64,000 nucleotides of DNA from Macrocystis pyrifera (Eukaryota > Sar > Phaeophyceae > Laminariales > Laminariaceae). The DNA is taken from the NCBI GenBank assembly GCA_031763025.1, contig JASSKH010000029.1, positions 1,054,001 to 1,118,000 on the forward strand. Direction: 5' to 3'. This document shows, one piece after another, positions 17,196 through 47,885 of the stretch. The notes under the pieces were generated by a model, which saw only the letters and a program-made list of their open reading frames with translations, had not been told where the DNA came from and searched no databases. The translations under genes were made by a program, and so were the position numbers. How positions within the stretch are numbered: the first letter of the stretch is position 1; each line of letters begins with the position of its first letter.

Positions 17196-17370
17196 TTTGC
17201 ACTTTGCTTTCGAAGTTGTATTATATTAATGCGCAACCCCCCGCCCGGAAAGGGGGGTTGGAGAAGGGGTGACCCCCCGGGGCTGCCCCAACGGCAACCC
17301 CGCGCTCACATCCGTACACTCGAGTCAACTCCCAACCCAACTGGCGACACAGAACTCTCGACGCCAGCCT
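17196..17370 (-). repeat. Split direct repeat B1
   Basis: A 175-bp copy of B2, placed directly after the recombinase frame on the minus strand. A T18 tract lies between it and the recombinase stop. Confidence 0.9.
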
Positions 17371-17491
17371 CCATCACACATGGGAGTTGACCCTATTTAC
17401 TGATGTGTTCTTACTACCCCTTCCCCTCCCACTTGCAATCTCATAGGGAACGCATGTTATAACACACTTTACCATTTTTTTTTTTTTTTTT

Positions 17492-18589: not shown

Positions 18590-21048
18590 GAGTTCGAGGC
18601 CAACACCGAAGTACAGAGGTCTGTGCCCGCATCCCCCAGGTCCTGCTCCTGCCACGGAATATCGGGTCGAACGGCACGCAGATTAGCGAGGACGGAAGCA
18701 CAGTCCCACCGTGAGATACCATCAGCGGCCACGTTAAAAATGCCCCGTACGTGTTTTGCGTCAAAGTGCCAACCAGAGGACAGTTCGAGCACACCAAGAA
18801 GGCGCATTAATGCGCCAGATCTCGGCTCCTTGCCCCCGCGACAACGGCGCACCCACTCCACGGCTGCCTCGTTGTCGCCCCGCAATAACACACAATCCCC
18901 CATTTCGAACGGACTTTCAGCACACGCAGAGACGAGAACCCATGCAGAAACGACCATGCCCAGCAGTTCGAGGACATTAATTGATATATCGTTCTCATCT
19001 GCAACGGACTTGCTCGATCCACAAAATCGAGCCCGTTCCCCTGCGTCAAGCTCGTATCGCCAGTACACACCAGTTTCAAGACAAAACCCCCCGACAGCGG
19101 TTTTAGATGCGTCCGAAAACAGAGTACGTCTAGGGGGGCGCTCAAGCAAATGATACATCGGAGCCGACAAGGTTCCGCCGCGCGCGTCCAACCCTTCCTC
19201 AACGAACCACCTCCAAAACTCGAGGTCACCGTGGAACTCGGGTCCCAGGGCGAGACGCCGCCCGGGGTTTGCCATACGACAATCAAAATCAGCTCCGGCG
19301 GCAATGCGCGGCATACCAACCAAAGCCAACAAGCGGTTAACGAAAAAGCGCCCCGGACGAACAGCAAAGGACACATGCATGAGAAAGCCAACTAACTGTG
19401 ACACCTGCTTCGCTGAAGCGGACGCACGAGACGAGGGCCACTCCGCGAGGATATCGTGCAGCTTGAGGCGCTTATGCGACGGCAACGTAACAGTAAGCGC
19501 TTCAGTATCAATAATCCATCCCAAGACTTCGAGTCGCGTGTCCCAGTTAGTTATTTTCTTGGCTGACAAGAGGGGTGGATCGGAAACACCACGTTCGCCC
19601 AACAAGCGAAAATGGTCCGACGCCAGCGACTGTACAGCACGCAAGCAACGGCGGCCGTCCGGCCACCATTGCAACTCGACGAGAATGCCATCGTCAACGT
19701 AGTACCTCACAAAAAAATTGCTTCCGGTGAGGCCTCCTGCGCCAGGAACGGGCCCACAATCACGCGGAATAGCAACAACCTGAACTCCCCGCGGCGGGGA
19801 GAGTTCAACGTGCGAAACGGCGGCAGCCCCTTGTGGGGAAACATCTGCGCCTTGAAACGCAGTGTGGGTGTGAGCATGCTCGAGCGCAGAGGCCATCAAC
19901 CCCCAAAACCCAGGACTATTACGCCAACCAAATTGCAAGCGCAAATCCACGACAACGCGATTGCCGAAAACGTATCCAAAGGTCGATGCGCCTGCCGGAT
20001 CAACCAAAACCTGCCGAAAAGCGTCTTTAACGTCCACACGACACAGCAGGATCCGAGCGCGAATACCGTGCGTCTGTCGCAAAAACAACACCCGTAAAAG
20101 CACATCACGAAGCACGTGTCCGAGCTCGCACGATGGCGCGGAGTCAAAGTCGGTGTCACCGTTAACACTGGTTCGACCATTCCCGCGCGCAAACGTGAGA
20201 TCGTGAATAATCCTTAACTTGGGTTCGAGAACGACGCTCAGCGGTGAAATGCGAAGACCCTGGATCTCGTCTGCAAATCGCACTTCAAACACCACCGCTC
20301 GGCCGTGCACAACGTCTGCGCATATCTTATCATGGATAGCCACAGTATGCATGGCAACGCCCGGGTGATTACCATACGCGAGTTCTGTGGTCAAATCCCC
20401 CCCCCGTGCAACGCAAACAGGCGCGCCTGGCGCCAGCACACGAAGCAACAAAGAAATACGGGGAAATTTTTTGATCTCACCAAACCAGTGCTGTACGACG
20501 GCAACGTTAATATGTGAAGCAAACAATGAGGCGCCGATGGTGGACAGGAAAAGAGGAACACTGCCTTGACACCGTCGCAAGAATGAGGAGCTGAGCGAAG
20601 CGACCTGATCGAGGCTCGCTGAGCCTCGCCCAGATACTGCCTTCGCCACTACCTCCCGAGCGGCGATCCACGCATCTACCTCATCTGTGATCGCCTCCAA
20701 ACGCACGTCACCGACCGCACCCTGCACGCACACCGGGTCCACGGACCCATCACCCTGCACACACACCGTGTCACCGGGCAAATAACTCGCACGCACGCCC
20801 ATATCCCTACCTTGCTTTGGGAAGGGAACCGAACCCGGAGTCACCGCGACGCGATCTCGCCCGACACCGCCGTCGCCAGCCAGAGCACCTAAAGCGCGCC
20901 CCCGCACCCCCCCCCCCCCTCCTTCGTGGGTTGCCAGCCGAGTGCCCGCTCCGCCGCTGGCGACAAGCGCCGTCGCCGCTCCGCCACCTGCCCGCGCCGC
21001 CACCGCCCCCCCCAGTGTTGGCCCAACCGACAGGAAGGGCCCGTGTCT
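18526..21048 (-). CDS. Pol of the Ngaro-type element: reverse transcriptase and RNase H
   Basis: Pol copies element RNA to DNA in a cytoplasmic or nuclear particle. RT motifs appear in order: RIIHDLTFARG, LCRVDVKDAFRQV (motif A Asp), QFGWRNSPGFWG and VRYYVDDGILVE (YVDD, near residue 434 from 21,003). RNase H follows with LFSDASKTAVGGF, INVLELLGM, LLRGDNEAAVEW and VAADGISRW, so all four acidic positions are present. No ATG stands near the start. The frame continues from Gag and is separated from it by one TGA at 21,049-21,051, so readthrough or another recoding event probably makes Gag-Pol. A G/C-rich Gly/Ala segment links the two. Confidence 0.85.
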   Translation of the reverse strand, partial: RHGPFLSVGPTLGGAVAARAGGGAATALVASGGAGTRLATHEGGGGGVRGRALGALAGDGGVGRDRVAVTPGSVPFPKQGRDMGVRASYLPGDTVCVQGDGSVDPVCVQGAVGDVRLEAITDEVDAWIAAREVVAKAVSGRGSASLDQVASLSSSFLRRCQGSVPLFLSTIGASLFASHINVAVVQHWFGEIKKFPRISLLLRVLAPGAPVCVARGGDLTTELAYGNHPGVAMHTVAIHDKICADVVHGRAVVFEVRFADEIQGLRISPLSVVLEPKLRIIHDLTFARGNGRTSVNGDTDFDSAPSCELGHVLRDVLLRVLFLRQTHGIRARILLCRVDVKDAFRQVLVDPAGASTFGYVFGNRVVVDLRLQFGWRNSPGFWGLMASALEHAHTHTAFQGADVSPQGAAAVSHVELSPPRGVQVVAIPRDCGPVPGAGGLTGSNFFVRYYVDDGILVELQWWPDGRRCLRAVQSLASDHFRLLGERGVSDPPLLSAKKITNWDTRLEVLGWIIDTEALTVTLPSHKRLKLHDILAEWPSSRASASAKQVSQLVGFLMHVSFAVRPGRFFVNRLLALVGMPRIAAGADFDCRMANPGRRLALGPEFHGDLEFWRWFVEEGLDARGGTLSAPMYHLLERPPRRTLFSDASKTAVGGFCLETGVYWRYELDAGERARFCGSSKSVADENDISINVLELLGMVVSAWVLVSACAESPFEMGDCVLLRGDNEAAVEWVRRCRGGKEPRSGALMRLLGVLELSSGWHFDAKHVRGIFNVAADGISRWDCASVLANLRAVRPDIPWQEQDLGDAGTDLCTSVLASNSCEMPLRPRLNALIRGILARG

Positions 21049-22230
21049 TCATCCCGAACCAGAGCCGCCACCTGCCCCGGCCCCCCTACGACCCCCGCCT
21101 GGGCGGAGCACCATAGCCCGCGACCCACCAGCCTGCGCCTCCGCGCCTCCTCGCATTACCCCGGCCGGTGCCGCCGATCTCCCATCGAGGAGCGCCGTAG
21201 GAGACGAGGCGTCGGACGGGGTATTAGCGTGCACGAATTTGCAGTCGGAGAACCGACATCGACCCGTGGACGAAAACATCCTGCACAGCGGGGCGTTCTT
21301 CTTTCTGGGCGGACCCATCCTGGCGGGGGCGAGGCTTTGGCTCCGCTTGTATGCCCCATCCCGACTGTCGCGTGGACCTTGGAGACCCTCGACAAGCCTC
21401 AGAACGTCGCCCCCGGACGAGCAAAAGGAGAGCGTGCGACTGAAGGCAGGGACAGGCGGCGCGTCGAACACCGCGTCAGACTGAGGGGGCACGGTCAACG
21501 GACGAACTTGCTGGGCGAACCTCATCAGGTCGTTCACCCAAAGACGTAAGTCGTCGTTCACCATTTCGCTCATGACGGCCCTCGCCGTGGAGCTGGACAG
21601 CAAAAAGATATTGCTGAGGGTGTGACGGCGCAGACCAGCAGCCGCGGATGTAAAGGAGGTGTTGACGGGTGCCAGCCGGTCCAGGCACGCGCGGTCGTCG
21701 GCGACCTCCGCCGAGAGTCCAACTGTAAGAACCGCCATGAGAGCCTGGCGCAGGAGATCCAGGCGGTCCGCGACCATGACCAGGTGGTCAACCGGGCGAT
21801 CGGCACGTGGCCCATACAAGGCCACGTCAAAATTGCTGATGGCACGAAGCTGAGCCGCCACCGCCGCCGTAACATCGACGCTCTCCCCCACAAACGACTG
21901 GATATCCGCGGCCGACTCGCCGAGGTTCGGGGGCAAGCGTCCCCGAAGCAGCCAGTGTTTGCGAGATGACATTTTTTTCCACATGGCCGTGTCGTCGGTG
22001 AGCTGCGATTTCTGTACATGGCGCTCCCTCGCATCTCCGCTGTCCCGCACAGAAGGCTCACGGTCGGAAAAATTGTCAACAAACTGTTGGAGGAGCACTT
22101 CGTTATTGGCGATCTTGGATACGCTGCTGGTGACGGCGTCCCGAAGGCCAGCCACAGACAGGAGCACGTTGTCCAGTGTAGATTTGACACCGAGTATATC
22201 CGTGTCTATTCTGGAAAACTCGGATGCCAC
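21049..22230 (-). CDS. Gag-like protein of the Ngaro-type element with CCCH zinc finger
   Basis: The protein is about 390 aa. An N-terminal helical region (LGVKSTLDNVLLSVAGLRD) is followed by a central helical domain. Near the C-terminus is a CCCH zinc finger, CRMFSSTGRCRFSDCKFVH, spacing C-x8-C-x4-C-x3-H, likely for RNA packaging. The start is uncertain: the frame is open into repeat A1 without an ATG, and 22,230 is a GTG. The first in-frame ATG is about 85 codons inside. A Gly/Arg tail ends at a TGA, and the same frame continues as Pol. The finger has the same spacing as the one in the unrelated Ty3-MT Gag. Confidence 0.75.
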   Translation of the reverse strand: MASEFSRIDTDILGVKSTLDNVLLSVAGLRDAVTSSVSKIANNEVLLQQFVDNFSDREPSVRDSGDARERHVQKSQLTDDTAMWKKMSSRKHWLLRGRLPPNLGESAADIQSFVGESVDVTAAVAAQLRAISNFDVALYGPRADRPVDHLVMVADRLDLLRQALMAVLTVGLSAEVADDRACLDRLAPVNTSFTSAAAGLRRHTLSNIFLLSSSTARAVMSEMVNDDLRLWVNDLMRFAQQVRPLTVPPQSDAVFDAPPVPAFSRTLSFCSSGGDVLRLVEGLQGPRDSRDGAYKRSQSLAPARMGPPRKKNAPLCRMFSSTGRCRFSDCKFVHANTPSDASSPTALLDGRSAAPAGVMRGGAEAQAGGSRAMVLRPGGGRRGAGAGGGSGSG

Positions 22231-22270
22231 CTGGTTTTGCCAATGCAGAACGTCAGCCGTCGATACTGCT

Positions 22271-22471
22271 CTAGTCTCACACCTTGGACCTGCAGCTCTG
22301 CCTCTGCTTCACTGCGCTGATACGTGTAGGTTGCGGCTACGTACCAGACAAGGTGTGTCTACCAAGGGCTACGATTCATGCTTCCGTGAATCACCGCAGT
22401 CATCTGATTGGCTTGAACTTCTTACGTACGTACAAAACTCACATTCTCTCATTCTTCCGAGAATATTCTGC
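22271..22471 (-). repeat. Split direct repeat A1 (5' end of the Ngaro-type element)
   Basis: A 201-bp copy of A2 at the right-hand boundary of the element. Confidence 0.9.
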
Positions 22472-22539: not shown

Positions 22540-22564
22540 TCAGTGTGGGGAGAGAGTGGAGTAG
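22540..22564 (-). pseudogene. C-terminal end of the interrupted OTU-like frame
   Basis: On the minus strand this piece ends in CCCCACACTGA. When the younger Ty3 and one copy of its AGTAG target duplication are ignored, it continues the OTU frame at 36,363 through the catalytic-type HAKHY motif and ends at this TGA a few codons later. This supports insertion of the Ty3 inside the last codons of that frame. Confidence 0.6.
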
Positions 22565-23014
22565 TGTGATGCGGTGACGGCTCTAGGGTAGTGGTAAGGG
22601 TAGTGGCAAGGGACGCAGGTTGTTCTGGCAGCTGGAAAGCAGTGCTTCGCTTCTTCTGTTTTAGATCTTCTTATTGATGGCGAGAGCTGAGGAGGTGCTC
22701 TGGTAGAGAAGTGAGAGGTAGGGGGGCGGGACTCGACGCCCAGATATACTCGTCCCACCCCACGCCACAAGCTCTCCTAAATTCCTCTTATCTGATGTAC
22801 GCCTACAGAACTTTCCTATGGCTACCAATCGTTCTTCTGCTAATATAAGAATATCTCACTTCGTGGTCCTATCTGCGCTAAGGAACATTACTCTCGTCTA
22901 ACGGGCTATCCGCCGGGTTAATCCATTCTTTGGATTATTCTCGTATTCGTGAGACTATAAGACTGCAACGTATTATCTACATCTATAGCCCATGAGTGCT
23001 CTACTCATATCACA
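22565..23014 (-). repeat. 3' LTR of Ty3-NADAR
   Basis: 450 bp. From about 22,632 to its right end it matches the other LTR almost base for base. It contains a 47-base stretch (from about 22,581) absent from the right-hand LTR, rich in GTAGTGG/GGCAAGGG. Confidence 0.9.
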
Positions 23015-24553
23015 TTAGCCCACCCTGAATAGTCGTATATGCAGACCACAAGATGGTCGGAGGGTGATGACGAAGTTCATCCCAAACGGCCAGGAAAAAG
23101 GTGGTCGAAGATGCGGCTATTCGAAACAAAAGAAATGAGGCTATAGATCCCCCCACACCTCGTAATAAGACCCAAATACTACGACGAGGGGGTGTTCGCT
23201 GAGAACAACCACTGAAAGGGAGACTAAAGGAGAGAGAGACACAGAACTCAAAGCAGAGGCGAAAGGAAAAATCACCCAAAATGAAAACAAAGAAAGACGA
23301 ACGCAAAAGGAGACAGAAACCTAAGCGAAGGCTGAAGAAGAAAACGAAGACCGAAGTGAAGGAAAAAGAAGGACGTACAAGCGTAGTACTGGAGTCATTG
23401 TCTGGGGCCCAAGGAGGTACGAAAGGGTTGTTCGCTGAACCGGGTTGGCGAACGAGGAAACTCTAAAAAGGAGACAGCGATCACAATTCAAAAACATATA
23501 TGTGTATCCGCTAGGCGCCATGCCTTGTCTTGTGGCGAAGGCCCTAACATGGTAGACATCACGCGAGACAGAACGGACACAGCTAGAGTGCTATGAGGGC
23601 TGCGCGCACTAGTGATTACTAAAGCCGAGAGACGCAACAAACAACGCGGCGTCTCGGAGACCTGTTCGTGGTGTGAACAAAACTAGCAAACGTAGCAAGG
23701 TAGCCAACTCAACAAAACCAAACTCAAAGACGGTGGCGGCAAGAAAATCCGCAAGAAAATAGGCCTAATGCGTGCAGTTCGAAGTTGTAGATAGCGCGGG
23801 GCCCAAACACTAGCGTGTGCAACTCGGTCAACCGTCGTTTGCCAGAGGACAGAGGGGTGTGCGGAATACCGGACAAGAAAGAATGAAGAAGAAAAGGGAA
23901 ACAGAAAACGAAATACCATCGGGACCAGAAAACAGACAAAAAGCTGGACACAGGTCAGGAGAAATCGATCATGTCCGAACCGCTTATGTATGGCCGATAA
24001 CTCAACGGCCTTCCGGGGCGGCAATGCTATCGGGACCCTACTTGTCAAACATGGAAGGAACACGGGTGAGCTGGAAGCTCGATATAGTCTTAGCTCGAGG
24101 ACCGTCTGAAACACAGGTCGGCGGAAGTCGACTAAGGTCAGAGTACAGCTCAGGCTACAACACGATTTTACCTCGGCGTGATATCGCCGATAATTGGCTG
24201 TAGGCTATTGGAGTACGAACACAAATGCAAATGAAGGTATTGCTACGAGTCGGTGGCCTGAACGTAAGGAGGTTACACGGAGCCGTAGGAGATAAGAAGA
24301 AAAACAAACGGCGGGGGGGGGGGGGGGGGGGGACGATGATACTCCCAAACACACCCAAAAGGAAACATACACGGCCTCGGATCGGTAGCCAACACGGGGT
24401 CGGTCAAGCGATACCGGTGGCGGTAGATGGAAACAAACACCCAAGAAGATGACTGCTGATGACTATTGAAGACTAACCCTGAAGAACTACTCTTAAGATA
24501 TTGTAGACTAACCAGAACCAAATACCCAGAACTAACAAAAGACTAAACTAAGG
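23015..24553 (-). other. 3' non-coding region of Ty3-NADAR
   Basis: About 1.5 kb lies between the integrase stop and the LTR, unusually long for a Ty3 element. The plus strand is purine-rich (23.2-23.5 kb) and includes a 20-base G run at 24,313-24,332. A short basic open frame at 23,281 on the plus strand (KKDERKRRQKPKRR) follows from the purine bias and is not a credible gene. Confidence 0.55.
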
Positions 24554-26245
24554 CTAACCAGGGGGGGGAGTGGAAACGGTGGGGGTTCCGCGGGACACAT
24601 CAGAGTTCCGCAGCACCCCACGTGCTAGGCTCCCATTCCCATGGCGTTGAAGACACCACGATCCGTATACGGCGTTCCGTGCTGTAGTGTAGGGGGCGGG
24701 TTGGAAGTCGATCTTGATCGGGCCGGGGTCGTCCAGGAACCGGACGATGTAGGAGCTTCCCGGTGAAGGCTCCGGCGAAGTTCTCGAAGAGGCGTCAGGG
24801 GGTGAGCTGTGAGCGACCTTGCCCAGCCACCAAAGGCCGTCGCGCGCCTTGTACCATATGTGTGCTCCGGAGGGTAGGATGGTGGTGCTGAAGTTGTGGA
24901 GCCAAAGGCTGCGGGAGACCAAGGCGTAGCCTGGGGCGAGGAAGATTTGTCCTTGAGATCGGGCCAGTTCGCGGTGAGCGGCGCCGATGCGCATCTGGCG
25001 GTAGAGGCGGTTCGTCTGGCGGTGCTGGGTTGGTGATCGTGACCAGTAAAGTAGGATGTGGCGCCGGAAGTGTTGAAGGTCCAGCTCGCGTTCCCACGAG
25101 GGGCTGAGAAGTCCAGTCCAGTGAGTCTCGTACAGAACGGCGATGACCCCGCCGCGGCCGCGTACGAGTTGATGGCCAGTGATCTGCTCGACCTCGAGGC
25201 GTTCCGGTGGAGGAGTGACGTCGTCGACGGTGACGTGGTAAGGGGGGGACTTGGCGGCAGAAGCTGTGAGCACGTATGTAGTAAGGTCCGCGGGCAGATG
25301 CTTGGGGATGTCGCTGGTGTCGTCGGGGTTCCGGCAAGGTTTGCATCGTTGGACGGAGACGCGTGGCTTGGAGTCCCGTCCCGGAAGGTCCGATGGAAGG
25401 TCGAGGAAAAGTAGCTTGTCGTGAAGGGGGCGATTGTCGGGGGTGTTTGAGGCGGGCGTCGGCCCTACGGCAAGGACCTTGAAGGGGCCATTCCAGTTCA
25501 GGGAAAGCTTCGCCGTGAGGACGGTTGCGTCGGTGCCCTTTCTGACGCCTTGGCGGATGGTTGAGGCGGAATTGTAGACCCAAACCCAGCCGCCTACGGT
25601 GAAGGGGGGGGATGCTAGGAGGGCGGCCATGATGGGCGCATTGCGGCGCTGAAGACGCGAGACGGTGAGTCGGTGTAGTTCGCGGACGAGGGAATAGGCG
25701 CGTCGTTGTCGGTCGGTGGCGAGGTTGATGTAAACCAGGTGATCGCGGTCCAGGCTTTGGTGACCACCGATATTGTCGGGTTCGAAGACCGAGAGCGGGA
25801 GGCGAGGAAGGCGGCCCATGTGGATTTCGTTAGGTGCAAGCCCTGTGGCGGCGTTCACGGAATTGTTGTAGGCCGACGACACGTGTGGGAGCAGCACGTC
25901 CCAGTCGGTCTGCTGTTCGTTGCCAACCATAGAGAGCATTTGGGCCAGTACGTGGTTGACGCGCTCGACGCCGCCGTTGGTGCAGGGGTGGTAGGAGCTG
26001 GTGTTGACCTTGTGGATGCCAAGGCGTTCGTAGACGATGTTCGCTAGCTTGGAGGTGAAGTGTAGTCCGTTGCCGGAGAGAAGTGTAACCGGGCACCCCC
26101 AGAGAGGGATGTACTCGTTCAGGAAGATGTCGGCAGTGCCGGCGGCCGTGAACTGCGCCGCTGAAACGGCATACATATCGGCGCGGCGGCTGAAGCGGTC
26201 TGTGAAGAGGAGGATGTGGACGTTCCCCGCGCGGCGTGAGCGGCA
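24554..26245 (-). CDS. Integrase core, chromodomain and Tudor-like domain of Ty3-NADAR
   Basis: The frame carries integrase sequences NVHILLFTDRFSRRADMYA, VTLLSGNGLHFTSK and YHPCTNGGVERVNHV. The first catalytic Asp (VDYFGPL) lies just upstream in another frame, separated by one extra G in a GGGG run near 26,240. The second catalytic Asp is replaced by Gly (SGNG where SDNG is usual, GGC for GAC), so this copy is predicted to be integration-dead unless that base is an error. A chromodomain-like block follows (EVEQITGHQLVRGRG, THWTGLLSPSWERELDL), then a Tudor-like block (GAHIWYKARDGLWWLGKV, SYIVRFLDDPG). Such tails usually guide Ty3-type integration to marked chromatin. Confidence 0.85.
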   Translation of the reverse strand, partial: CRSRRAGNVHILLFTDRFSRRADMYAVSAAQFTAAGTADIFLNEYIPLWGCPVTLLSGNGLHFTSKLANIVYERLGIHKVNTSSYHPCTNGGVERVNHVLAQMLSMVGNEQQTDWDVLLPHVSSAYNNSVNAATGLAPNEIHMGRLPRLPLSVFEPDNIGGHQSLDRDHLVYINLATDRQRRAYSLVRELHRLTVSRLQRRNAPIMAALLASPPFTVGGWVWVYNSASTIRQGVRKGTDATVLTAKLSLNWNGPFKVLAVGPTPASNTPDNRPLHDKLLFLDLPSDLPGRDSKPRVSVQRCKPCRNPDDTSDIPKHLPADLTTYVLTASAAKSPPYHVTVDDVTPPPERLEVEQITGHQLVRGRGGVIAVLYETHWTGLLSPSWERELDLQHFRRHILLYWSRSPTQHRQTNRLYRQMRIGAAHRELARSQGQIFLAPGYALVSRSLWLHNFSTTILPSGAHIWYKARDGLWWLGKVAHSSPPDASSRTSPEPSPGSSYIVRFLDDPGPIKIDFQPAPYTTARNAVYGSWCLQRHGNGSLARGVLRNSDVSRGTPTVSTPPPG

Positions 26246-29200
26246 GGGGCCCGAAGTAGTCGACGCTGACGGTGATGCCAGGCCCGTTGGGCAAAGGAAG
26301 AGAAAGGATGGGCCAACGAATGGTGTGCTGGGAGGTCTTCCGCGCCTGGCATTGAAGGCAACGGCGGATCCACCAGCGGACGGAAGCGTCCATGCCAATC
26401 CACCAAAAGAAACGTGCCAACATGCGGACCGTTCGGGTGACTCCCAGGTGTAGAGAGGTGGTGGCGTGGCATGTGTTCAGCACCCAAGGGCGCATTAACA
26501 TTGGCACGTAGACGCGTGGGGTAGAGGGGGCGGGTGGTGGTAGGCTGTTCCCGGATGAGGTTGTGGGTGGTCGTTGGACCAGGAGGGCGGTTTCGTCGTC
26601 GGTACGGTGTAGCTTGCTTTTGGAGGCAAGAGTGAGGACGTCCGAAAGTTGTGGGCGCCGGGCCGGGGGGATGAAGTCCAGGAGGTCGTGCGGCGTGGGG
26701 CTGGGGGAGTCCAACGACAGGAAGCGGATGGTGGCGCAGCACAGGGGCTCCGCGCGTTGTTCTCGCGCCCAGTCTTTGTAGGTGTAGTGCTCGACGCAGG
26801 CGAGGAGGTAGGGGTCATCATCGGGTTCGACGACGGGCTCCGGAAGGGGCACTGACGGTGGTGTTTGCGCCGGCGGCGAGGGCGTTGTTAAAGGGGTCGG
26901 TCTTTGCGTGGTGGGCGCCGATGGCTTGGGTGGCGGTCGGCGTCCAAACCGGTAGTCGGCTGTGGGCCGAGGGGTTCCCGCGGCAGCGGCGACGCGATGG
27001 CGGGTCCGAGAAGATATCAGACCTGAAAGGGCTGGTGTCGTGGCGCCAATGGTGGGCGGCGGAGAGACGACGGACGGCATGGAAGCCGAGCCTGGAGGAG
27101 CTCCGGTGTTCACGGCGGTATTCTCGGTGCCGGCAAGCTGTCCGGTGGTGGAGTCGCTGGTCGCAATAGGCCCGATAAAGGTGTGGGTTGCGGGGGAAAG
27201 GGTGGGGTGCTCCATACGTGGTCCGAGTAGGCGAAAATCGCGGAAGTCGTCGTCAGTGAAGGGGAGCGGCTGGACGGTCGGGATGGGTCTGGAAGGGGGG
27301 GACACGAGCCCACCCAAGCCGATACCCGGGGTGGAAGGGTCGTACGGCGCGAAGCCGCAGGGGTGGATGAGGTAGATGCCGACGGTGTCGGGGCCAGTGA
27401 GGCGGTTGCGTCCGGTGCGGTCGGCGTCGGTGGCTGGTTGGGGAAGCCGGGAGAGGAAGTCGGCGTTGCCGTTGGTCGTGCCCTTCCGGTATTCCAGCGT
27501 GTAGGTGTATGCTGAAAGGAACTCGAGCCATCGCCGGACACGAGCGTTATGTTCTCCGACCTTGGCGATGTTCTCGAGCGCCTTGTGGTCCGAGTAGATC
27601 TGGAAGCGGGTGGACCATAAGTGTCCGCGGAGGCGTTTGATCGCCCACACGATGCTCCCGGCCTCGAGGTCGAGGGGTGTCCATGAACGTTCGGAGTCCA
27701 GGGTGGCACGGCTGATGAAGAGGATGGGGCGGACTGAGCCGTCGGCTTGCTCTTGCTCAAGGGTCGCTCCGAAGCCGTCGATTCTAGCGTCGCAGTAGAG
27801 GCGGAAGGGGCGGGAGTTGTCGGCGACGGCGTCCCAGTCGGGGTAGACGAGGATAGGCGGTTCGGCAAGTTCTTGGAGAATGGCGCGTACGGTGGTTTCC
27901 ATGGAGGGGGTGAAGTCGAACGTCGCGCCTTGCTTGAGTAGAGCGTTGATGGGGCGCAGACGTCGAGAAAGGTTTGGCAGGAACTTGCCGTAGTAGTTGA
28001 TGCCTCCAAGGAGTGAGCGCACTTGCTTCTTGTCGGTCGGCATGGGCATTCTGGTGAGGGCGGCGACCTTGTCGGAATTTGGGCTGTAGCCGCCAGCGGA
28101 AATGGTGTGTCCCAGGAAATCGGCGGTGGTGGCGCCAATTTTGGCCTTGGCGGGGGAGAGTTTGAGGTGGTGCTTCCGGAGGCGTGCGAAGAGGGTTCTC
28201 ATGTTGGCGACGTGGTCGGTGGGGTCGGGGTCGAAGACGATGATGTCGTCGAGGTACGCGGCGACGCGTTCCAGGCCCTTGATGACCTCGTTGATGACCT
28301 TCACGAACCAGCCCGGGGAGGCGCTGCTTCCTTGCGGCATAACAAGCCATTCGAACAGCCGGTTGGAAGTGCAAAACGCCGTCAAAGGGATGGTGTCCTC
28401 GTCGATGGTGATTTGGTGGAACGAGGAGACCAGTCGAAGAGAGAAAAGATGCGACCTTTGCCCAAGGAGTCGAGGACTTCGTCGACGCGGGGGATGGGGA
28501 GTTGCCCGAGGGAGCTGATGGCGTTGAGCTTCTTGTAGTTGATCGTAATCCGGACACCTCCATCCTTTTTGGGGATGGCCACCATAGGGCTTGAGTATGG
28601 CGACGTAGAATGTTGGATCAGGCCGGCGGCCAGGTACTGGTCTAATACCGCGTCTGCCTTCTTTGCGAGGATGGGGTTGATCCTGTAGGGGCGGGAAGTG
28701 ACCGGTGCGCTGCCCGGGGGTACGGTGATCTTGAACGGCATCAGCGAGCACGAGCCGAAGTCGGTTTTTGAGGTGGAGAAAACGTCCTGGAACTCGCAGA
28801 GGACGTCTCCCAGGTTGGTGATCACCGACGGGGTCCATCCAGAACCGTGCAGGTCGAAGTTGACGTCGCGTAGGTGTAACGGCAGACGTTCCCAGAGGTC
28901 GAGAAAGCTGTCCCGTTGGTCGGTGTTGAGGCGTGCAAGGAGTTGTGGGCACGGGGCTTTTGGTGCGGTAGGAGGGTCATCTGTCGATGGGCTCTGGTTG
29001 GCCACGGGAATGTTGTCGTGGAGGGCATGTACATCCGGAATTTGAGGGGGGTGGGGAGGGGCCAAGGAAGGGTGTCCAAGGGTGGAAAGTGGTACCTGTA
29101 CCAGTGGGGAGTAGGAGGTTCCGAGGAGGTCGCCCGGCTCGAGATCGGTAGATCCAGATAGGGGGACCGTTTGGCATCCATCGGAGACGAAAATGGCCGT

Positions 29201-29440
29201 GTCGGAGAGTGGGTTCTCGCGGGGGAGCATGTTCACCATGTAGTTCCCGGTAAATGCTGGAGCGCCTGACTGGCGCGCCAGGTTGACCTTAACGAGCTTG
29301 GGGGTGGAGGAAAGCGATATAGCTTTGTTGCCGGCGAATCGGAGGTGGTAGACGTCGTCAGTGGAACGGTCGTCGGGAATGAATGCTGAGGCTCCGTTGG
29401 GGTCATGGTGGTTCAAGGAGAGCTCACCGCGGGTTCGCCG
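26246..29440 (-). CDS. Reverse transcriptase, RNase H and integrase N-terminus of Ty3-NADAR (one frameshift)
   Basis: RT begins with PYRINPILAKKADAVLDQYL and SSPMVAIPKKDGGVRI. It loses frame at about 28,434, where FDL is broken by a missing C, and resumes as RLVSSFHQITIDEDT. The catalytic YLDD is intact (AAYLDDIIVFDPDPTD, about 28,230-28,260). RNase H shows RLYCDARIDGFGATLEQE, SWTPLDLEAGSIVWAI, IYSDHKALENI and NGNADFLSRLPQ. A Pro-rich linker leads to the integrase HHCC finger (RRCLQCQARK) at about 26.35-26.5 kb. RT and RNase H catalytic residues are all present. Confidence 0.88.
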
Positions 29441-31565
29441 GGGGGGAGGTTGGTGGGGGGGGGGTGGGCTGTTGCTGGAGCGTGGTATACGAGCGTTGCT
29501 CGAAGCACATCCAGCTGTCTCGTCCCAGAAGGATGGGGTTCTGCATGGTTCCTGCAGGAACTACGCAGGCCCATACTGCCAGGGCAGCAGTGGGGGACTG
29601 GAGGCGCATAAACTGGATTCTTAAGCGGATGGAGACGGAGGTGGAAAGGGGGGCTGAAGTGCCGAAACCTCCCCATGAACGGGGGGAACTGTGCCGTTCG
29701 CACGCATCGGTGGCTGCCTGGGAAGCCTTCAGTTGTTCCACCGCGGTTGCGGTGATAAACGACTGGGGCGAGCCGGTATCGAGCAGTGCCACGAGTTCGC
29801 GGCGCGTAGTGGCGGTGGGGCCGCTGTGCACGAGTACTTTCGTGGTGAACGACGCGTCGTCGACGGTAATGATGCCGCTTGTAAGGCATGGTCCGTGTTC
29901 CGGTATCGGCGGGCGGCGGGTAGGGAGGTGGCTGTCAGTGGCGGTGTTGATGGTGGACACTTGGGCAAAGTGGCTGCTGGGGTAGGTGTCGGGGGTAGAC
30001 GGCGGTAGGAGTGGCCCAAGTGGAGAGGTAGGCGGTTGCCATGGAGGGGTCGAGCTTGTTTCGTGGATGCCGTCGGCTGTGGGGGAGACCCGGGTGGAGT
30101 CGGTGGGGGCGGGTGTTGGCTCCGGGTCGTGAAGATGGGGAGGAAATGGAGGCTGGGCGGACCGATTGGCGCCGAGGTTTGCTCGAACGTCCATCAGTAT
30201 CCTGCCCAGCAGATTCCGACCACGCCAACGCGTCGGGTCACAGGCGTCCGGATGGTCGGCCTTGAAGCCTATGCCCCAGATGAGGTCGTGTGGGCTGGCC
30301 TCGGCGATGTGCTTGTCCCCGGTTGCTATTAGCTCCTCCCGTAGCTCCGGGTGTTGGCGGAACTTGGAGAAGTTAATGTAGAGGGCGATGGTGTAGCGGT
30401 GTCGCTCCCAGACCATTTCGTCGAAGTCGGAAACGGTTCGCCCAAGTGCTTTTTGGCGGGCTGGGTCGCGGGTCGCTTTGATGCGGCGCTCAGTTGTGAT
30501 GTCCCCGAAGAGCGCGGCCTTCTGCGCCATCATCATCTGCTCAGCGCAGTTGTATGTGACGCCATCGTGTTCGATGTCGCACAGGTACCACTGCGAAAAG
30601 ACCGAAGAGGAGTCCCAGAAGAAGTGGAAAGATGAGGCGGCCTCGGCGGTGACGTGTGCAGTTGATGGCGTCTTTTGTGTCGGGGGTGGGGGGCGACGAT
30701 AATCTTTCCTATCGCCGCCTGGCGTCGACGGAGGTAGAGTCAGCAACGATCGAGCGGTGCTGGGCGGAACCCTCGTGTTCGCGGGGGAATTGCTCGGCAA
30801 AGCCGAGGTACCGGGGCGGTCCTCGCCGGGGCTTATAAGCCGGGCGGGACGACCCTCAAGCGCCCTATCGTCCAACTTTTGGAGAACAGGGGCATACTCG
30901 CTAGGGGATGCCACACCTGGGGTCCGTGTCCACGCTTTGCGCGAAGCAGGCGAGGAGGACGGGTGAGGGGGCTCAGGGCAGACCCTGGTCGACGTTGGTC
31001 GCGAGTCTTCCGTATTCAAAACGGGACTGTCCCTCGAGCTCAGGGACAGCGGTGGTGTCAACACCGTGGCAGCTGGAAGAAGCCCGTCGTTCGCGGGTTC
31101 AACGCTGTCACAAGAAATACGCGCATGCTGGAACATGCGCGTATGGAGCGGCCTTGATGAGGCAGGCTCAGGGGGCGGTGGCCCGGTAGACGAAACAGTA
31201 GTTTCGTGTGAACCGGAACCGCTGGTAGCCGTAATCGTCGAGACGTTTCCCAGGGTAGCAATGTCTGGGGTCTCGGCAATAGTCGGCAAGCAGCGTTGCT
31301 CACCGCCAGAAGACGTCGAGTGGAGCATCCCGGTGGGGCTCGGCGTCTTGGCCTCCTCCCGCCCACACCTCAAGGCAATCACTTGGGCAAGATGATCAGT
31401 GCTTGAACAAGTGGCTGTGAAATGGGCTGGGGTAGGGGGGGGGCATTGGAGGGCAGGGGTCGGGGAGGCGTGATGCACGTGATTTACTCGTGCGTCCTGG
31501 GAGCCTCGGGTGCTCGCAGTAGATGCTGTTGGTGGAGATGCGGCAGTTGCTCCACCATCGGCTTG
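29424..31565 (-). CDS. NADAR domain fused to Ty3 aspartic protease
   Basis: After the Gag TGA the frame stays open. About 290 residues are low-complexity Ser/Thr/Pro. A NADAR domain follows (30,171-30,632): FHFFWDSSSVFSQWYLCD, DGVTYNCAEQMMMAQKA, KFRQHPELREELIATGDKHI, EASPHDLIWGIGF and RWRGRNLLGRILMDVRANL. The FSQWY, CAEQ, DxIWGIG and NLLG motifs that define the family are all kept. NADAR proteins of bacteria, phages and an oomycete are reported to remove ADP-ribose from guanine bases, and YbiA-type members act on riboflavin intermediates. A retropepsin follows (LVALLDTGSPQSFIT ... ILLGRDSWM). A stop at 29,424 sits after C runs, and RT resumes in the next frame. Confidence 0.9.
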   Translation of the reverse strand, partial: QADGGATAASPPTASTASTRGSQDARVNHVHHASPTPALQCPPPTPAHFTATCSSTDHLAQVIALRCGREEAKTPSPTGMLHSTSSGGEQRCLPTIAETPDIATLGNVSTITATSGSGSHETTVSSTGPPPPEPASSRPLHTRMFQHARISCDSVEPANDGLLPAATVLTPPLSLSSRDSPVLNTEDSRPTSTRVCPEPPHPSSSPASRKAWTRTPGVASPSEYAPVLQKLDDRALEGRPARLISPGEDRPGTSALPSNSPANTRVPPSTARSLLTLPPSTPGGDRKDYRRPPPPTQKTPSTAHVTAEAASSFHFFWDSSSVFSQWYLCDIEHDGVTYNCAEQMMMAQKAALFGDITTERRIKATRDPARQKALGRTVSDFDEMVWERHRYTIALYINFSKFRQHPELREELIATGDKHIAEASPHDLIWGIGFKADHPDACDPTRWRGRNLLGRILMDVRANLGANRSAQPPFPPHLHDPEPTPAPTDSTRVSPTADGIHETSSTPPWQPPTSPLGPLLPPSTPDTYPSSHFAQVSTINTATDSHLPTRRPPIPEHGPCLTSGIITVDDASFTTKVLVHSGPTATTRRELVALLDTGSPQSFITATAVEQLKASQAATDACERHSSPRSWGGFGTSAPLSTSVSIRLRIQFMRLQSPTAALAVWACVVPAGTMQNPILLGRDSWMCFEQRSYTTLQQQPTPPPPTSPPANPR

Positions 31566-33296
31566 TCAGTTGGTGCGGAAGGTTCCCGGCTGCCGTTGGT
31601 TCGGGTGGGTACCCGAGTTGGTGCTGCCCATCCGCATGTTCGCGGGGGCGGCAGGTGCGGAAGTATTGGTCGCAGGGGTATGCACCGTCAACGCGGAAGA
31701 CGAGGGGGCAGGCTCGATGCGTTGTTGTTGGAACTGGTGCCCTGGCGACTGTCGGTTGCCGTTGTCGTATGACCGGCCGTTGTTGTGGCGCCGGTTGTCG
31801 GAGCGTCCGTTGTTGCCGCGGTAGTTGCGGGAGTGGTTCTGGTTGGAGCGGTTACTGTTGTAGTTTCCGCTGCGGTTGTTGTTATTGTTGCCTCGACGGT
31901 TGTTGTTGTCGTAGCGGTTGGAGGTTCGCTCCAGGTTGCGCTCGTATTGCCCACGGCGGTAGGAGAGCATCCTTCGTTGCCATTGGCGGTAAGCGTGTCC
32001 ACCATCGTTCAACTGTCCGAGTGCCGGGTTCAGGATGCCGGACGTGTTGAGGAAGCCCTCGGGGCAGGTTTTCATACTGTGGTCCGTACCATTGCAGTTG
32101 AGGCAATGTCCACCGTGAGCGCGTAGGGCTTGGGCACGGGCCGAGCTCGTCAAGAGCGGTGTCAGGAGCGGTGGGGTCTGAGGGTCGAATGTGGTCGTGA
32201 CCATGTATACCTCCTCGTAGTGTCGCAGCGGCCAGTCCGCCTCGTCCTCGCAGAACGGGTCGCGCCCCTGTTCGGCCACGTTCATGACGAACGGGTTGGA
32301 GGAAGACCCCCTTGTGTTGGTACCTGGGCCACGCGGAGTTTGCTGCCGCGCTGGGGTCGGTGGAGAGGAGGAGTACGTGACGAATCCGCCGGAGGAAGTC
32401 GCGTGGAAGCGGTGCCCGTTGATTGCCGGCGTCTTGTTGGTCGCCAGCACTTCGAAAGCTGCCCACATGTCGGCAACCGAGGAGAAGGGCTGCGGGGTGG
32501 TCATGAGGCTCCCCGGATAAAGCGTGGGCATGAGGGACGGGTATTGGCTGCCCGTAGTGCCGCGTACAATCTCGATGACCATGGCATCGCTCGGCTTCAA
32601 GACCCGTTCCGTGCCTTGTGCGATGGACACACGTTCTTTAAAGGCACGGACGAAGGTCGCGAAGTCCGTCAGATTTGGGACGCCGAAGGTGTGGAGCTGC
32701 TCGAAGGCGCGGCCCTGGTCGCCGTCGTCGAAGTGGTTCGTGAGTAGACGTAGGAGCTTCTTGAATGCCGACGGTCCGGTGTTGTCGACGGTGAGCTCCT
32801 GGCGCACCTGGACGAAGAAATCGTCGATGAGGCGAGGCAGTGGCGATGTCATGACCTGGGGGGACGAGAGCGCCTTGCGGAAACACCTTTGAAGTGGAGC
32901 ATCCCATCCCACTACCCACGGAGGTGTTTCAAACGACTGCTTCTCCGAGTCGTCGCACACTATCAGGATCTCGCCGAGGACGAGTTTCACGCTGGCGAGG
33001 AGCATGCCCAGGTAGACGGCGGGTTCCACATTGTCCGGGCATGGAAACCGCACGAGCGCAGTGAACTTGCGCATATCGACCCCGGCGTAGAGGCGCCGGA
33101 CACTACGACGTTCCGCCTCCGTCATGGGCTCCGTAGTGGCTTCTGTCCTCAGGCTAAGTGCTCGTGCGGGGGGGGGCGCTGTCGTCGTCGTGGGAGTTGT
33201 CGAGGTGGAGTGGGACGGTATCGCGGCGGCGTGTCCGTCGTGGGGCGGGTGGTTGGGGGTGTCGGGAGAGTGGGTCGAGGCTCGGTTGGGTTCCAC
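31566..33296 (-). CDS. Gag capsid and zinc knuckle of Ty3-NADAR
   Basis: The capsid-like helical region (FKKLLRLLTNHFDDGDQGRA, FATFVRAFKERVSIAQG) is followed by a single zinc knuckle CLNCNGTDHSMKTC (C-x2-C-x4-H-x4-C, about 32,063-32,107) and an Asn/Arg-rich basic tail (NNRRGNNNNNRSG) suited to RNA binding. The frame ends in a TGA at 31,566-31,568 and the next codons continue without another stop into NADAR-protease. It overlaps the N-terminal Gag frame at a 9-base C run, a likely slip or sequence error. Confidence 0.85.
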   Translation of the reverse strand: MEPNRASTHSPDTPNHPPHDGHAAAIPSHSTSTTPTTTTAPPPARALSLRTEATTEPMTEAERRSVRRLYAGVDMRKFTALVRFPCPDNVEPAVYLGMLLASVKLVLGEILIVCDDSEKQSFETPPWVVGWDAPLQRCFRKALSSPQVMTSPLPRLIDDFFVQVRQELTVDNTGPSAFKKLLRLLTNHFDDGDQGRAFEQLHTFGVPNLTDFATFVRAFKERVSIAQGTERVLKPSDAMVIEIVRGTTGSQYPSLMPTLYPGSLMTTPQPFSSVADMWAAFEVLATNKTPAINGHRFHATSSGGFVTYSSSPPTPARQQTPRGPGTNTRGSSSNPFVMNVAEQGRDPFCEDEADWPLRHYEEVYMVTTTFDPQTPPLLTPLLTSSARAQALRAHGGHCLNCNGTDHSMKTCPEGFLNTSGILNPALGQLNDGGHAYRQWQRRMLSYRRGQYERNLERTSNRYDNNNRRGNNNNNRSGNYNSNRSNQNHSRNYRGNNGRSDNRRHNNGRSYDNGNRQSPGHQFQQQRIEPAPSSSALTVHTPATNTSAPAAPANMRMGSTNSGTHPNQRQPGTFRTN

Positions 33297-34183
33297 CCGT
33301 AGCCGCGGCCGGCGTTGGAGTGGAAATACCGTAGCTCGAGTAAAAGGGTGTGGGCGGCCCCGATGAACTCGGACGAGGCACCCTCGGTGGCGGCGCGGGC
33401 CAGAACGAAGGTGATCGACGGGTCGCAGTCGGGTGTGAACAGGCGCCAGACGCGGTGTGCCGCTATCGAGACATCCGAGGCTATCGGGTCGCGTGTACTC
33501 TGCATCCAGCGGAGCTTGGCGTCCAGGAAAACCCAGTCATTGGACTCGAAACCGAACGTCTGCGGTTGCCTGTGCCCAGTGGGCATGGGGGCTGGCGAGG
33601 GTTGGGTCGGAATTGGTGCCTGGGACATTGTGGTCCCAGTTTGGTTTTGGGGAGGCTGGTGGGTGGTGGTCCTAGACATCGCGGCGGACGTAAAGGGTGG
33701 GTCCGGGTGCGGAGGGAGCGGCTGCGATTGCGTTGTGGTGGTCGCGGTCACAGCTGTAGTCTCGTAGGTGGGGCCGAAAGGGTTCGAAGAAGGAGTGGGG
33801 GATGGCGGTAGCACGAGTAGGAGCTCAGCGCTCTCTTTCGCGAGAAGGAGGAGCTGCTCGTGGTGGGCTTTGAGGGCCGCACGGCGCTCACGGAGGGCCG
33901 TGGGATCGCCTTGGTAACGCCCCGGATGGAGAGCAAGGGTGGAGGCTTCCTGTGCGGAGACCTCCGGTTTTATGGTAGGCACGGCACTGGTCGTACCTGC
34001 TCCCAGTGGAGAGGATCCCGGTGTGGTGGGGTGTAGCGTGAGGTCGCTCAGAATGGTTTCGAAGCCGGGGGTGTCGTCGTCCGTGGCGCGAGAGGCCCTT
34101 GCGGCATACCTCGCCTCGCGGGGGTTGGTGGCGTCGGGGGAGTGGGCGCCGGGCATGTTGGTGGAGGAAGCTTTCTCGGCCAT
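33149..34183 (-). CDS. N-terminal part of Gag of Ty3-NADAR
   Basis: I start it at the ATG at 34,183 (MAEKASSTNMPG). It is Pro/Thr-rich with a short structured stretch near the end (FGFESNDWVFLDAKLRWMQS, AAHRVWRLFTPDCDP). It runs out of frame at the C9 tract (G9 on the plus strand, 33,168-33,176), where the capsid frame takes over. One continuous Gag is the simplest interpretation. Confidence 0.65.
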   Translation of the reverse strand: MAEKASSTNMPGAHSPDATNPREARYAARASRATDDDTPGFETILSDLTLHPTTPGSSPLGAGTTSAVPTIKPEVSAQEASTLALHPGRYQGDPTALRERRAALKAHHEQLLLLAKESAELLLVLPPSPTPSSNPFGPTYETTAVTATTTTQSQPLPPHPDPPFTSAAMSRTTTHQPPQNQTGTTMSQAPIPTQPSPAPMPTGHRQPQTFGFESNDWVFLDAKLRWMQSTRDPIASDVSIAAHRVWRLFTPDCDPSITFVLARAATEGASSEFIGAAHTLLLELRYFHSNAGRGYGWNPTEPRPTLPTPPTTRPTTDTPPRYRPTPPRQLPRRRQRPPPHEHLA

Positions 34184-35959
34184 GTTTAGGCGGGTGGAAC
34201 GCTTGTACTGGGGCGGGAAGAGGTTTGGTGGAAGATGGCATCTAACTTGGTACGTCAAACTGGGACATTTATGTCGTCAACGCTGGAAAACGTGCACGTA
34301 AAGAGCAGCAGCAAAAAAAATAAATAAAATAAAACAAAAAAAATGGAAATAATGGCCGTTGTTTGTATCCTACAGGCTGTGGGGGTGGGGCAAAAAAGTT
34401 AGCAGAAATCTGGTCAATTTCGGCAACATGCGCCCTGTTTATATAGTAAAGGCTCCGCAGGAGGTGCATCATGCCGCTTGTTCTGTACCTCGTAGTAGTG
34501 TAGAAGCAGCGTAAGGATGGGCCAATCTGAAGAGGGGTGCACATATGTACGCTGGTCCCAAAAGAGCTATTAATACTACGTGCAACCATATAAGATTCGT
34601 CTGCGAGTATATGCGTTCCTATACGATGGATGTGCGACTCCATCACATCGAGACGGGGGGACCGACCCAATTGTGCATCGTTTGCCTACCTAAATATATG
34701 GCAGGGAACGAGGGGGGGTTCACGGGAATTTTCGCTACTACATACGTAATATTATTACTACGTACTATGGTATCACTATTCACTATTTGTACCTCGCTCG
34801 TATACCAGTCTCTGTAGGCCAGTATGTGGTTTGAAATCCAGTAACCAAAGGGCATGAAAAAAAAAATAATAAAACAATATATATGGCTCTTCTCGCTATC
34901 AGGGGCTGGGGGGGGTCGCAAGTAAGGTCAGTCAATACGTACGATATACCATTGCTCGTATCAGGAAAAAATAAATAAATAAAAATAATAATAATGGCCT
35001 CTCAAGAACTCGCAGGCGAATATTCCATGCGATGGATACCAGCGGATACAATTCGCAATGATGGTCGAGCCGTTTGTACGCTGCTCACAGATGCGTATAC
35101 TAACGATGGCGTAGTAGGTCACACCACCGGCATACATATCACGTATCAAAGAATAAGGTGTCGGTACTGCTGCGTGTTTGTCCTATCAGTACGATAGCAG
35201 CTTCTTTGTAGTTGTGGTAAGGGTCAAATCCCATACAACACGAGTATAAACCGGAAGATGCGGACAAAATGTCTGTGGGCAAGAATGTGCCAGTAGTTCC
35301 ACCTACAGTAGTACTTACTACGTGCATTCCCTGTGAAAGGGCGGGCATATCGAGGCGGAGGGGTACAAAGGAAAACGCTGCTTGGTTTGCGCGATGAGCA
35401 CGAGGTCATTTTGGGGGGTCTCCAGGTGCATTCAACCACGTGGTGTCACGTATCGTGGAGGATATCGACCTCGTCATTCCACGGCGGAGACGGGGTATAG
35501 GGAGCGGAAAAACAAACCTCGATCATACTGCTAATAGCACTGTTAACAGCACCAATCAATACTTACGAACAACAGAGCTTGTTGTACGTAGTTGCACGTG
35601 CGATTTGACGGTGCCTTATAAGAGGGGAGAAGCGTCTACTCACCTATACTGGTATACTGGGGGGGGAGAAGCGTCTACTTATGCTACTAGGCAGCTTGTT
35701 ACGCTCTACACTATAAACGCACTCAGTAACGCGGGTTCGTAAAAAAAAAAAAAGAAGAAAAAACGAAAGAAAAGAGAGAGCAAGAAGAACGAAAGAGACG
35801 AGAAACAGGGAACATAAACAAAAATAAATAAATAAAAAGTTGACTTCAAAACCAGATGCCTCCCGGATAGGGATGGCTCACATGATCGTGAGAAGATCTA
35901 GAAGAAGCGCTGCAGTCCCAAGCTTGGCCAGAACATTCGTTGGATGCGACGACGTCAGA
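34184..35959 (-). other. 5' leader of Ty3-NADAR
   Basis: About 1.8 kb lies between the 5' LTR and Gag with no credible gene. A/T-rich runs at 34,312-34,345, 34,858-34,880, 34,965-34,995 and 35,738-35,840 divide it. The sequence next to the LTR (minus strand TCTGACGTCGTCGCATCC) does not begin with TGG, so the primer is not an ordinary tRNA 3' end, or the boundary has decayed. Confidence 0.55.
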
Positions 35960-36362
35960 TGTAATGCTCTGACGGCAGCTGGAAAAGCAGTGCTTCGCTT
36001 CTTCTGTTTTAGATCTTCTTATTGATGGCGAGAGCTGAGGAGGTGCTCTGGTAGAGAAGTGAGAGGTAGGGGGGCGGGACTCGACGCCCAGATATACTCG
36101 TCCCACCCCACGCCACAAGCTCTCCTAAATTCCTCTTATCTGATGTACGCCTACAGAACTTTCCTATGGCTACCAATCGTTCTTCTGCTAATATAAGAAT
36201 ATCTCACTTCGTGGTCCTATCTGCGCTAAGGAACATTACTCTCGTCTAACGGGCTATCCGCCGGGTTAATCCATTCTTTGGATTATTCTCGTATTCGTGA
36301 GACTATAAGACTGCAACGTATTATCTACATCTATAGCCCATGAGTGCTCTACTCATATCACA
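35960..36362 (-). repeat. 5' LTR of Ty3-NADAR
   Basis: 403 bp. It begins TGTAATGCTC on the plus strand and ends ATATCACA, directly followed by the AGTAG target duplicate. Confidence 0.9.
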
Positions 36363-36860
36363 AGTAGTGCTTGGCATGTGGATGATATATAACATACAGG
36401 CTGTTGTTTAAAGGAAGGTTTGGGACAGGAGAGAAAGCAGCAGTGCCGGCAACGACAACGGTTATGGAAATGTTGTGTAGTTGCTGGGCGGCCGCGATTT
36501 TGATGTAGCCAGCATAGGAGTTTGGATGAGACATAATATGTAAATAGTCTTCCAGGATGCTGTAGTAACGAGGCGGGAGGCCCAGAATGTGGATATGTTC
36601 GCTGTTGAACCCGTTGGATATGTGTAGGAAGAAATAATCGTGATTTTGGGAAATGTGGGAAACAATTTGTTTCTTTTCGTTCGTCCTGGATGGCGACAAT
36701 CTGCTTGGCGTACTGCTTCGGAATCCCGTGAAGCCCTGGAGCAGGCGAAATGGAAGGGAGTCTTTTTGCGCTTGATGATGATGTCTCCGTCTTTGATGGC
36801 GGAGTCCGTCAGGCGGCAGTTGTAGCACTTGCCACGGACCTGGTCGAAGTAAACATATAG
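36363..36860 (-). pseudogene. OTU-like cysteine protease fragment, interrupted by Ty3-NADAR
   Basis: The minus-strand frame reads KKQIVSHISQNHDYFFLHIS, SILEDYLHIMSHPNSYAGYI, KIAAAQQLHNISITVV and YVIYHPHAKHY. This matches the second half of OTU domains, where the last His (in the H-Y motif) is catalytic. The DGNC-type Cys motif is not present, so it is partial. Just upstream, in another frame, a zinc-binding stretch reads GKCYNCRLTDSAIKDGDI ... FHFAC. OTU enzymes cleave ubiquitin chains, and they also occur inside transposons such as Helitrons, so this may be element-derived. The Ty3 lies a few codons before its stop. Confidence 0.6.
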
Positions 36861-41545: not shown

Positions 41546-42059
41546 CCACCAGCAACTCAAGAACACTGCGTAAAAGTCTCCAGGGAAGGCCAGGGCCACA
41601 ACATCACGTGCCGCATCCTCAACCCTTTCCGCCATACAAACGACCCACACCAACCTTGTGAAATCAAGATAAATCAAGATACATACCCGAGTAGCATTTT
41701 CGCATGGAAATACAAGGCCATAAAGAGGCCACACAGGATAGACTAAAAGACACACGCCATATGAATTGCCCTCCTGGCATACCATGCACACGCAGAGCCA
41801 CGCCGTACGGGAGAATACAAAAGGGAAACATTCCTTACAACTCTAGACAGAACCACAAGAACCAACGTGAAGGAATATCCGTAATACGCTCACGCCTCTA
41901 CGAAGCTACGACACAGTAAAACGCGCGTTAAATGAAAAGCATATGACGATAAACGAAGGAGGTCCCATAGTCTAATTACGCTATGCTCGCCTAATGCCAC
42001 TGTCCCCATCCGTCTTGGACCACAAGACAAACAGGAGCCACCAGGCCCATCCAGTACCC

Positions 42060-44492: not shown

Positions 44493-44582
44493 GGGTACGC
44501 CCTGGAGACGATCTCTCCGGGGAACGAGCCGAAGCCTCCACCGTGGCCAACACCGCTATCGCCCACAGACTGGTCGCCTGCC

Positions 44583-47882: not shown

Positions 47883-47885
47883 TAG

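Follow-up and report, generated by a model that had tools for sequence, protein, structure and literature searches.

A complete YbiA-type NADAR domain in the Pol region of a Ty3/gypsy retrotransposon family of Macrocystis pyrifera

The element and its NADAR domain

In a 64,000-nucleotide stretch of Macrocystis pyrifera contig JASSKH010000029.1 (positions 1,054,001 to 1,118,000; hereafter the window), a Ty3/gypsy long terminal repeat (LTR) retrotransposon carries a NADAR domain in its Pol region (Table 1). Along the element, the Gag zinc knuckle is followed by NADAR, an aspartyl protease (LLDTG), reverse transcriptase (RT), RNase H and integrase, so that NADAR lies between Gag and protease, as a first-pass annotation made from the sequence letters had proposed. 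The assignment to Ty3/gypsy rests on the TG...CA ends of the LTRs, the target duplication, and the order protease, RT, RNase H, integrase. The profile search returns NADAR with E=5.6e-48 (163.7 bits against a PF08719 cut-off of 35.1) for the open reading frame (ORF) at 29424-31478 of the minus strand; the domain is full length, and all four motifs named in the annotation, FSQWY, CAEQ, DLIWGIG and NLLGRILM, are read in its translation. It agrees with the YbiA fold, and the catalytic residues E43, K50 and E125 are kept as E313, K320 and E393 of the translation. The glutamate at the last-strand catalytic position (E393) places the domain in the YbiA subfamily. The Pol region of this abundant, recently active Ty3/gypsy family includes a complete YbiA-type NADAR that retains its catalytic residues.

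The two LTRs of the window element are identical over their first ~385 nt, except for one homopolymer indel, and their alignment contains 3 mismatches in 402 positions, all of them beside the ~47-bp gap of the 5' LTR. Because the LTRs are almost identical, the insertion looks young, and the earlier description of a young element with LTRs and a perfect target duplication (CTACT/CTACT) stands. The LTR ends were fixed by comparing eight other copies, in which the LTR ends in ...GCATCACA; the exact repeat stops short of this true end. Among other members of the LTR family, eight of eight copies have a target duplication that is perfect at 4 bp; the window element departs from this, being perfect at 5 bp and mismatched if 4 bp alone are taken.

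The window copy as read is not intact: pol is frame-split at the protease-RT junction, in RT and in integrase. The Gag and NADAR-protease frames share one reading frame with a single TGA between them. Readthrough of this stop (TGA-C) into NADAR is an attractive possibility, besides a frameshift or a re-start of translation, but no mechanism is put forward, since copy L025 has TAG at this place, L011 has TGA followed by TAA, and L012 has NADAR in another frame.

Table 1. Features of the NADAR-bearing element, in window coordinates
Feature	Position	Strand	Remarks
Ty3/gypsy LTR retrotransposon	22565..36362	-	13,798 bp; LTR pair, target-site duplication, pol domains
5' LTR	35960..36362	-	403 bp; ~47 bp missing near inner end
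3' LTR	22565..23014	-	450 bp, TGTGATATG...CATCACA
Target-site duplication, 5' side	36363..36367	.	CTACT on minus strand
Target-site duplication, 3' side	22560..22564	.	CTACT on minus strand
First open frame, 369 aa	33149..34258	-	N-terminal Gag or leader ORF; overlaps Gag ORF; no Pfam family
Gag ORF, 576 aa	31566..33296	-	CX2CX4HX4C zinc knuckle; TGA stop 31566-31568; no Pfam family
NADAR-protease open frame	29424..31565	-	713 aa stop to stop
NADAR domain PF08719	30174..30623	-	profile 1-162/163
Aspartyl protease region, LLDTGSPQSF	29499..29888	-	motif at residue 565; tblastn 20/20 loci; no Pfam protease match
Reverse transcriptase	28101..28597	-	RVT_1 E=4.3e-21; two frames, two tblastn pieces
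RNase H (RT_RNaseH)	27507..27821	-	E=6.5e-27
Integrase zinc-binding domain PF17921	26334..26507	-	E=5.4e-16
Integrase core (rve) PF00665	25985..26233	-	E=0.0045, below cut-off; frame differs from zinc domain; tblastn 16/20 loci
Chromodomain-like stretch, weak, 3' of integrase	25040..25195	-	PF00385 E=0.06, below cut-off
RT/RNase H segment absent from RT-less form	27530..28701	-	5/5 close ten-kb copies; 14/20 further close copies
Gag core segment also absent	32136..33091	-	4/5 close RT-less copies; ends vary 100-160 bases

Copies and relatives of the element

The host genome searched comprises 537 Mb. PF08719 gave 1264 first-look candidates in this genome, of which 150 were scored; every one of the 150 exceeded the cut-off, 24 of them with an internal stop, so that the refuting condition set in the first-pass annotation, absence of the domain from all other copies, does not hold. 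At all 20 ten-kb loci drawn from the scored set, Gag, NADAR, protease and an N-terminal RT stretch occur in this order, accompanied by the RT/RNase H core in 15 and by integrase in 16. At these 20 loci, NADAR thus lies within the element boundaries, always in the same order and at the N-terminal end of Pol. A comparison of 63 sources, all of which yielded NADAR (60 stop-free, 3 with stops), revealed two subfamilies, one with 92-100% identity (34 stop-free sequences) and the other with 46.7-51.4% identity (26 stop-free sequences) to the window domain. The glutamate at the E393 position is present in 34 of 34 and 26 of 26 of these. Because 11 other copies encode a NADAR protein identical to that of the window, with changes at only 1-3 of 453 nt, the family has been active recently.

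These 11 copies include both forms of the element, 4 with the RT segment and 7 without it. The deletion at 27530-28701 takes out the core of RT together with some of RNase H, and its breakpoints agree within a few bases in five of the five close copies (L020 and L025-L028); when another 20 close copies were compared, 14 lacked the segment and 6 had it, a smaller gap being seen in one of the latter. All of these RT-less copies retain NADAR, protease and integrase sequence. RT-carrying and RT-less elements therefore co-circulate, sharing one NADAR, and the RT-less elements were presumably moved by enzymes made elsewhere. The stretch at 28702-28869, just before the RT breakpoint, differs from the window by 8-9% (19% in one copy) in the seven RT-less copies that have the window's NADAR protein. 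Because NADAR is near-identical in the same copies in which this stretch has diverged, there are hints that the two forms have recombined or undergone conversion.

A second search was made with the RT segment and was blind to NADAR; 40 of its 948 candidates were scored. The PF08719 list includes the NADAR of 21 of these 40 copies (window included). The other 19 gave a NADAR match at the expected place in 10 cases (4 with stops) and no full domain in 9, and five of the nine keep just the stretch past window position ~30217. Four of these five (L131-L134) share 95.7-99.7% mutual identity over ~690 nt, ~525 nt of which are an AT-rich non-coding insert. The insert is a dispersed, tandemly repeated AT-rich element situated inside NADAR at the window equivalent of 30217; it is found at full length at six loci, four of which are the RT-carrying copies L131-L134. 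Such NADAR-interrupted copies, present at no fewer than four loci, could have spread via either transposition or segmental duplication. A related repeat splits copy L019 between its RT stretches.

A NADAR-bearing gypsy element is not new as a kind; the window element is a new member. The accessible part of a 2025 Genome Biology paper (PMC12477816) describes an Ectocarpus Gypsy lineage (Gypsy-12_Ec32) whose Pol begins with a YbiA-family NADAR, attributes chromatin-reader domains to the same lineage, and also reports NADAR in ORF1 of Tx1 long interspersed nuclear elements (LINEs) of Crassostrea gigas. It proposes that NADAR processes RNA intermediates and that horizontal transfer is possible, the matches outside Ectocarpus being almost all bacterial. 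A literature search on NADAR/YbiA and retrotransposons gave no further report of such elements among the matches listed. The window element resembles Gypsy-12_Ec32 in being Ty3/gypsy with a YbiA-family NADAR at the N-terminal Pol end, and its nearest named RT relatives, among the matches listed, are from Ectocarpus, several of them with PF08719. On the other hand, it comes from a different genome, and its chromodomain is a weak match below the cut-off. The Tx1 domain is likewise captured by a retrotransposon, but a non-LTR one in another host lineage. Compared to the accessible part of PMC12477816, the RT-less form that keeps NADAR, the copies with NADAR cut by an insert, and the two distant metagenomic gypsy elements described below, with NADAR elsewhere in Pol, are additional.

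Among the matches listed for the RT ORF, an ENA protein, P0022, ranks first (75%), and the top named matches come from Ectocarpus sp. CCAP 1310/34; the best Ectocarpus protein (P0026) has 67% RT identity over 39% of the query. According to precomputed annotation, PF08719 is present in 17 of the 120 matches listed out of 434, and many of the others begin downstream of the place of NADAR. In the 2088-residue protein P0143, a single frame encodes the Pfam domains NADAR, RT, RNase H and integrase, and a protease motif separates the first two; in P0167, NADAR shares its frame with a zinc knuckle. Two further gypsy Pol proteins are arranged differently: P0176 (1919 residues, 8569-bp ENA contig) has the order RT, RNase H, integrase, macrodomain, NADAR, with an end resembling a chromodomain by eye, and thus combines two different ADP-ribose-related domains within one retrotransposon; P0187 (1552 residues, 8469-bp ENA contig) has the order protease, RT, RNase H, NADAR, integrase. 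Both are single metagenomic contigs, for which chimeras are possible. Their NADARs keep E43, K50 and E125 and depart at R79, Y84, D86 and R93, and that of P0187 departs additionally at G78 and W133.

In a quick RT tree, built without the split RT of the window and without Gypsy-12_Ec32, host copies of the distant subfamily join Ectocarpus and other NADAR Pol proteins, and the RTs of P0176 and P0187 are distant from the window lineage. A NADAR tree of 52 selected rows, taken from 85 NADAR-matching proteins and 63 host copies, also sets P0176 and P0187 apart from the main group. This is no proof of separate origins, since approximately unbiased (AU) tests allow the main group plus either P0176 or P0187 as one clade (p 0.137 and 0.227); the main group alone as a clade, without P0003, is not rejected either (p 0.417). 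Independent capture of these two NADARs is instead suggested by their Pol position and RT distance. Outside the elements, the protein that falls closest to most of the lineage in this tree (95/83) is P0003, a 664-residue NADAR-WD40 protein on a metagenome contig. It is possibly a cellular source or a recapture; the signal is too weak to name a donor.

Proposed function and alternative explanations

The accessible parts of PMC11543638 and PMC11125620 report that NADARs strip ADP-ribose from guanine in DNA, and that of PMC11833690 describes them as the only hydrolases doing so on RNA. Based on this chemistry, the window domain may act as a Pol-encoded hydrolase that clears ADP-ribose from the guanines of element RNA or cDNA, the most parsimonious and the likeliest of the explanations considered, and one that we regard as evenly balanced between right and wrong. 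NADAR would be made as the first part of Pol, enter the particle together with RT and integrase, and be released by the adjoining protease; delivery in the particle is suggested because NADAR stands at the Pol front beside the protease. It would then hydrolyse ADP-ribose on guanines of the element RNA and/or cDNA, so that an ADP-ribosyl-guanine lesion would not block reverse transcription and integration. The guanine mark could come from the host, a rival, or damage. Some retroviruses have a dUTPase in Pol, and NADAR would play a comparable role as a nucleic-acid sanitising enzyme.

The known NADAR systems bear on this proposal in different ways. The Phytophthora nicotianae NADAR (PDB 8bau) has 34% identity to the window domain; in the accessible part of its description, it is cellular, not linked to DarT and not borne by an element. 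The DarT1-NADAR toxin-antitoxin system has a BC4488-type NADAR of the same superfamily, with the same predicted chemistry, whereas the window domain is YbiA-type; the window element has no linked DarT transferase, and the six scanned element ORFs gave no match to any transferase family.

Selection on NADAR, for which the first-pass annotation had suggested a comparison of nonsynonymous (dN) and synonymous (dS) rates, is clear over the long term and weak over the short term. Between the subfamilies, the comparison favours constraint (dN 0.47, dS ~2.3 and saturated, median omega 0.20, pooled pN/pS 0.49). Within one subfamily, the ratio of nonsynonymous to synonymous (N/S) distinct substitutions is 1.72 versus 2.55 expected (0.67 of neutral, p 0.050), and within the other it is 2.13 versus 2.63 (0.81 of neutral, p 0.12), in a sample taken from the NADAR match list and hence biased toward good, conserved copies. 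Weak short-term constraint is expected, because most changes in young copies follow insertion.

Several observations weigh against the proposed hydrolase. The ratios within subfamilies, only weakly below neutral, are one of them. Retention of NADAR by copies that have lost RT shows that the domain does not depend on reverse transcription in cis for its fate. Of 16 element NADAR proteins, 9 retain R93 and none retains D86. The DarT search (PF14487) of the host, where the annotation had looked to a DarT-like transferase, gave 0 candidates (its control matched in 1 of 14 genomes) in a search that ignores introns. That NADAR is needed in cis is most strongly contradicted by the RT-carrying copies with NADAR cut, which would be explained by supply in trans but also by dispensability.

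Dispensability leads to a different explanation, which we consider a minority possibility: NADAR may be a passenger of ancient capture, catalytically competent by inheritance and largely dispensable, its retention reflecting recent bursts of a few source copies. The near-neutral ratios within the family fit this, as do the NADARs cut by a common insert at at least four loci and the 9 of 40 RT-drawn copies in which the expected place lacks the full domain. However, active-site residues are kept across two subfamilies of ~50% identity, in the elements of other records and in Ectocarpus; the RT-less form, which lost other genes, still has NADAR; and NADAR recurs in other gypsy elements.

Counter-defence, the role given to the domain in the first-pass annotation, is a special case of the Pol-encoded hydrolase and shares its probability; by itself it is rather doubtful. 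Here, a host or resident rival would ADP-ribosylate the guanines of the invader and NADAR would reverse this, in line with known NADAR chemistry and the DarT-NADAR pairs reported in the accessible sources; the NADAR beside a macrodomain in P0176 suggests selection for ADP-ribose removal itself. But DarT has no candidate in the host, as stated above, and PARP (PF00644) gave one partial match of 6 candidates (its control matched in 0 of 14 genomes), other ADP-ribosyltransferase families not having been searched; no guanine-specific transferase emerged from the DarT and PARP searches. Macrodomains gave 3 matches of 6 candidates; like the DarT search, the PARP and macrodomain searches take no account of introns. 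The captured NADAR itself, full length, with catalytic residues, and kept across the family, is upheld, whereas the counter-defence added to it is an inference, and the copies with NADAR cut speak against the domain being strictly required in cis. A non-hydrolytic role, in which NADAR would tether the complex by binding to ADP-ribose carried by host proteins or chromatin, is improbable: chromatin-reader domains in the reported lineage (accessible part of PMC12477816) and the weak chromodomain-like stretch (E 0.06) would fit, but catalytic residues beyond the binding ones are kept, and NADAR sits at the Gag-Pol junction, away from the integrase end.

If the NADAR of the window family is active, retrotransposons would carry their own enzyme for nucleic-acid de-ADP-ribosylation, which would suggest that mobile elements of eukaryotes have to withstand guanine ADP-ribosylation. 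More speculatively, and with the balance of probability against it, ADP-ribose removal may have been captured recurrently by LTR retrotransposons (the NADAR between Gag and protease, P0187 and P0176). This would imply that eukaryotic cells or rivals ADP-ribosylate guanines of retroelement nucleic acid as an unrecognised defence, and that RT-carrying and RT-less partner elements in this genome share NADAR in trans. More than 1000 candidate copies, natural NADAR-interrupted and RT-less variants, and two distant metagenomic elements make the question directly testable.

Neighbouring elements

A second Ty3/gypsy-like element lies on the plus strand at 42000-51000 of the window and has RT, RNase H and an integrase core; its four scanned ORFs gave no Pfam NADAR match. 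Adjoining the 3' end of the NADAR element is a DIRS/Ngaro-like element at 16329-22471. It contains a tyrosine-recombinase-like ORF (PF00589, E 0.0038, below the cut-off) and split direct repeats, in which 16329-16515 corresponds to 17185-17370 and 16994-17195 corresponds to 22271-22471.
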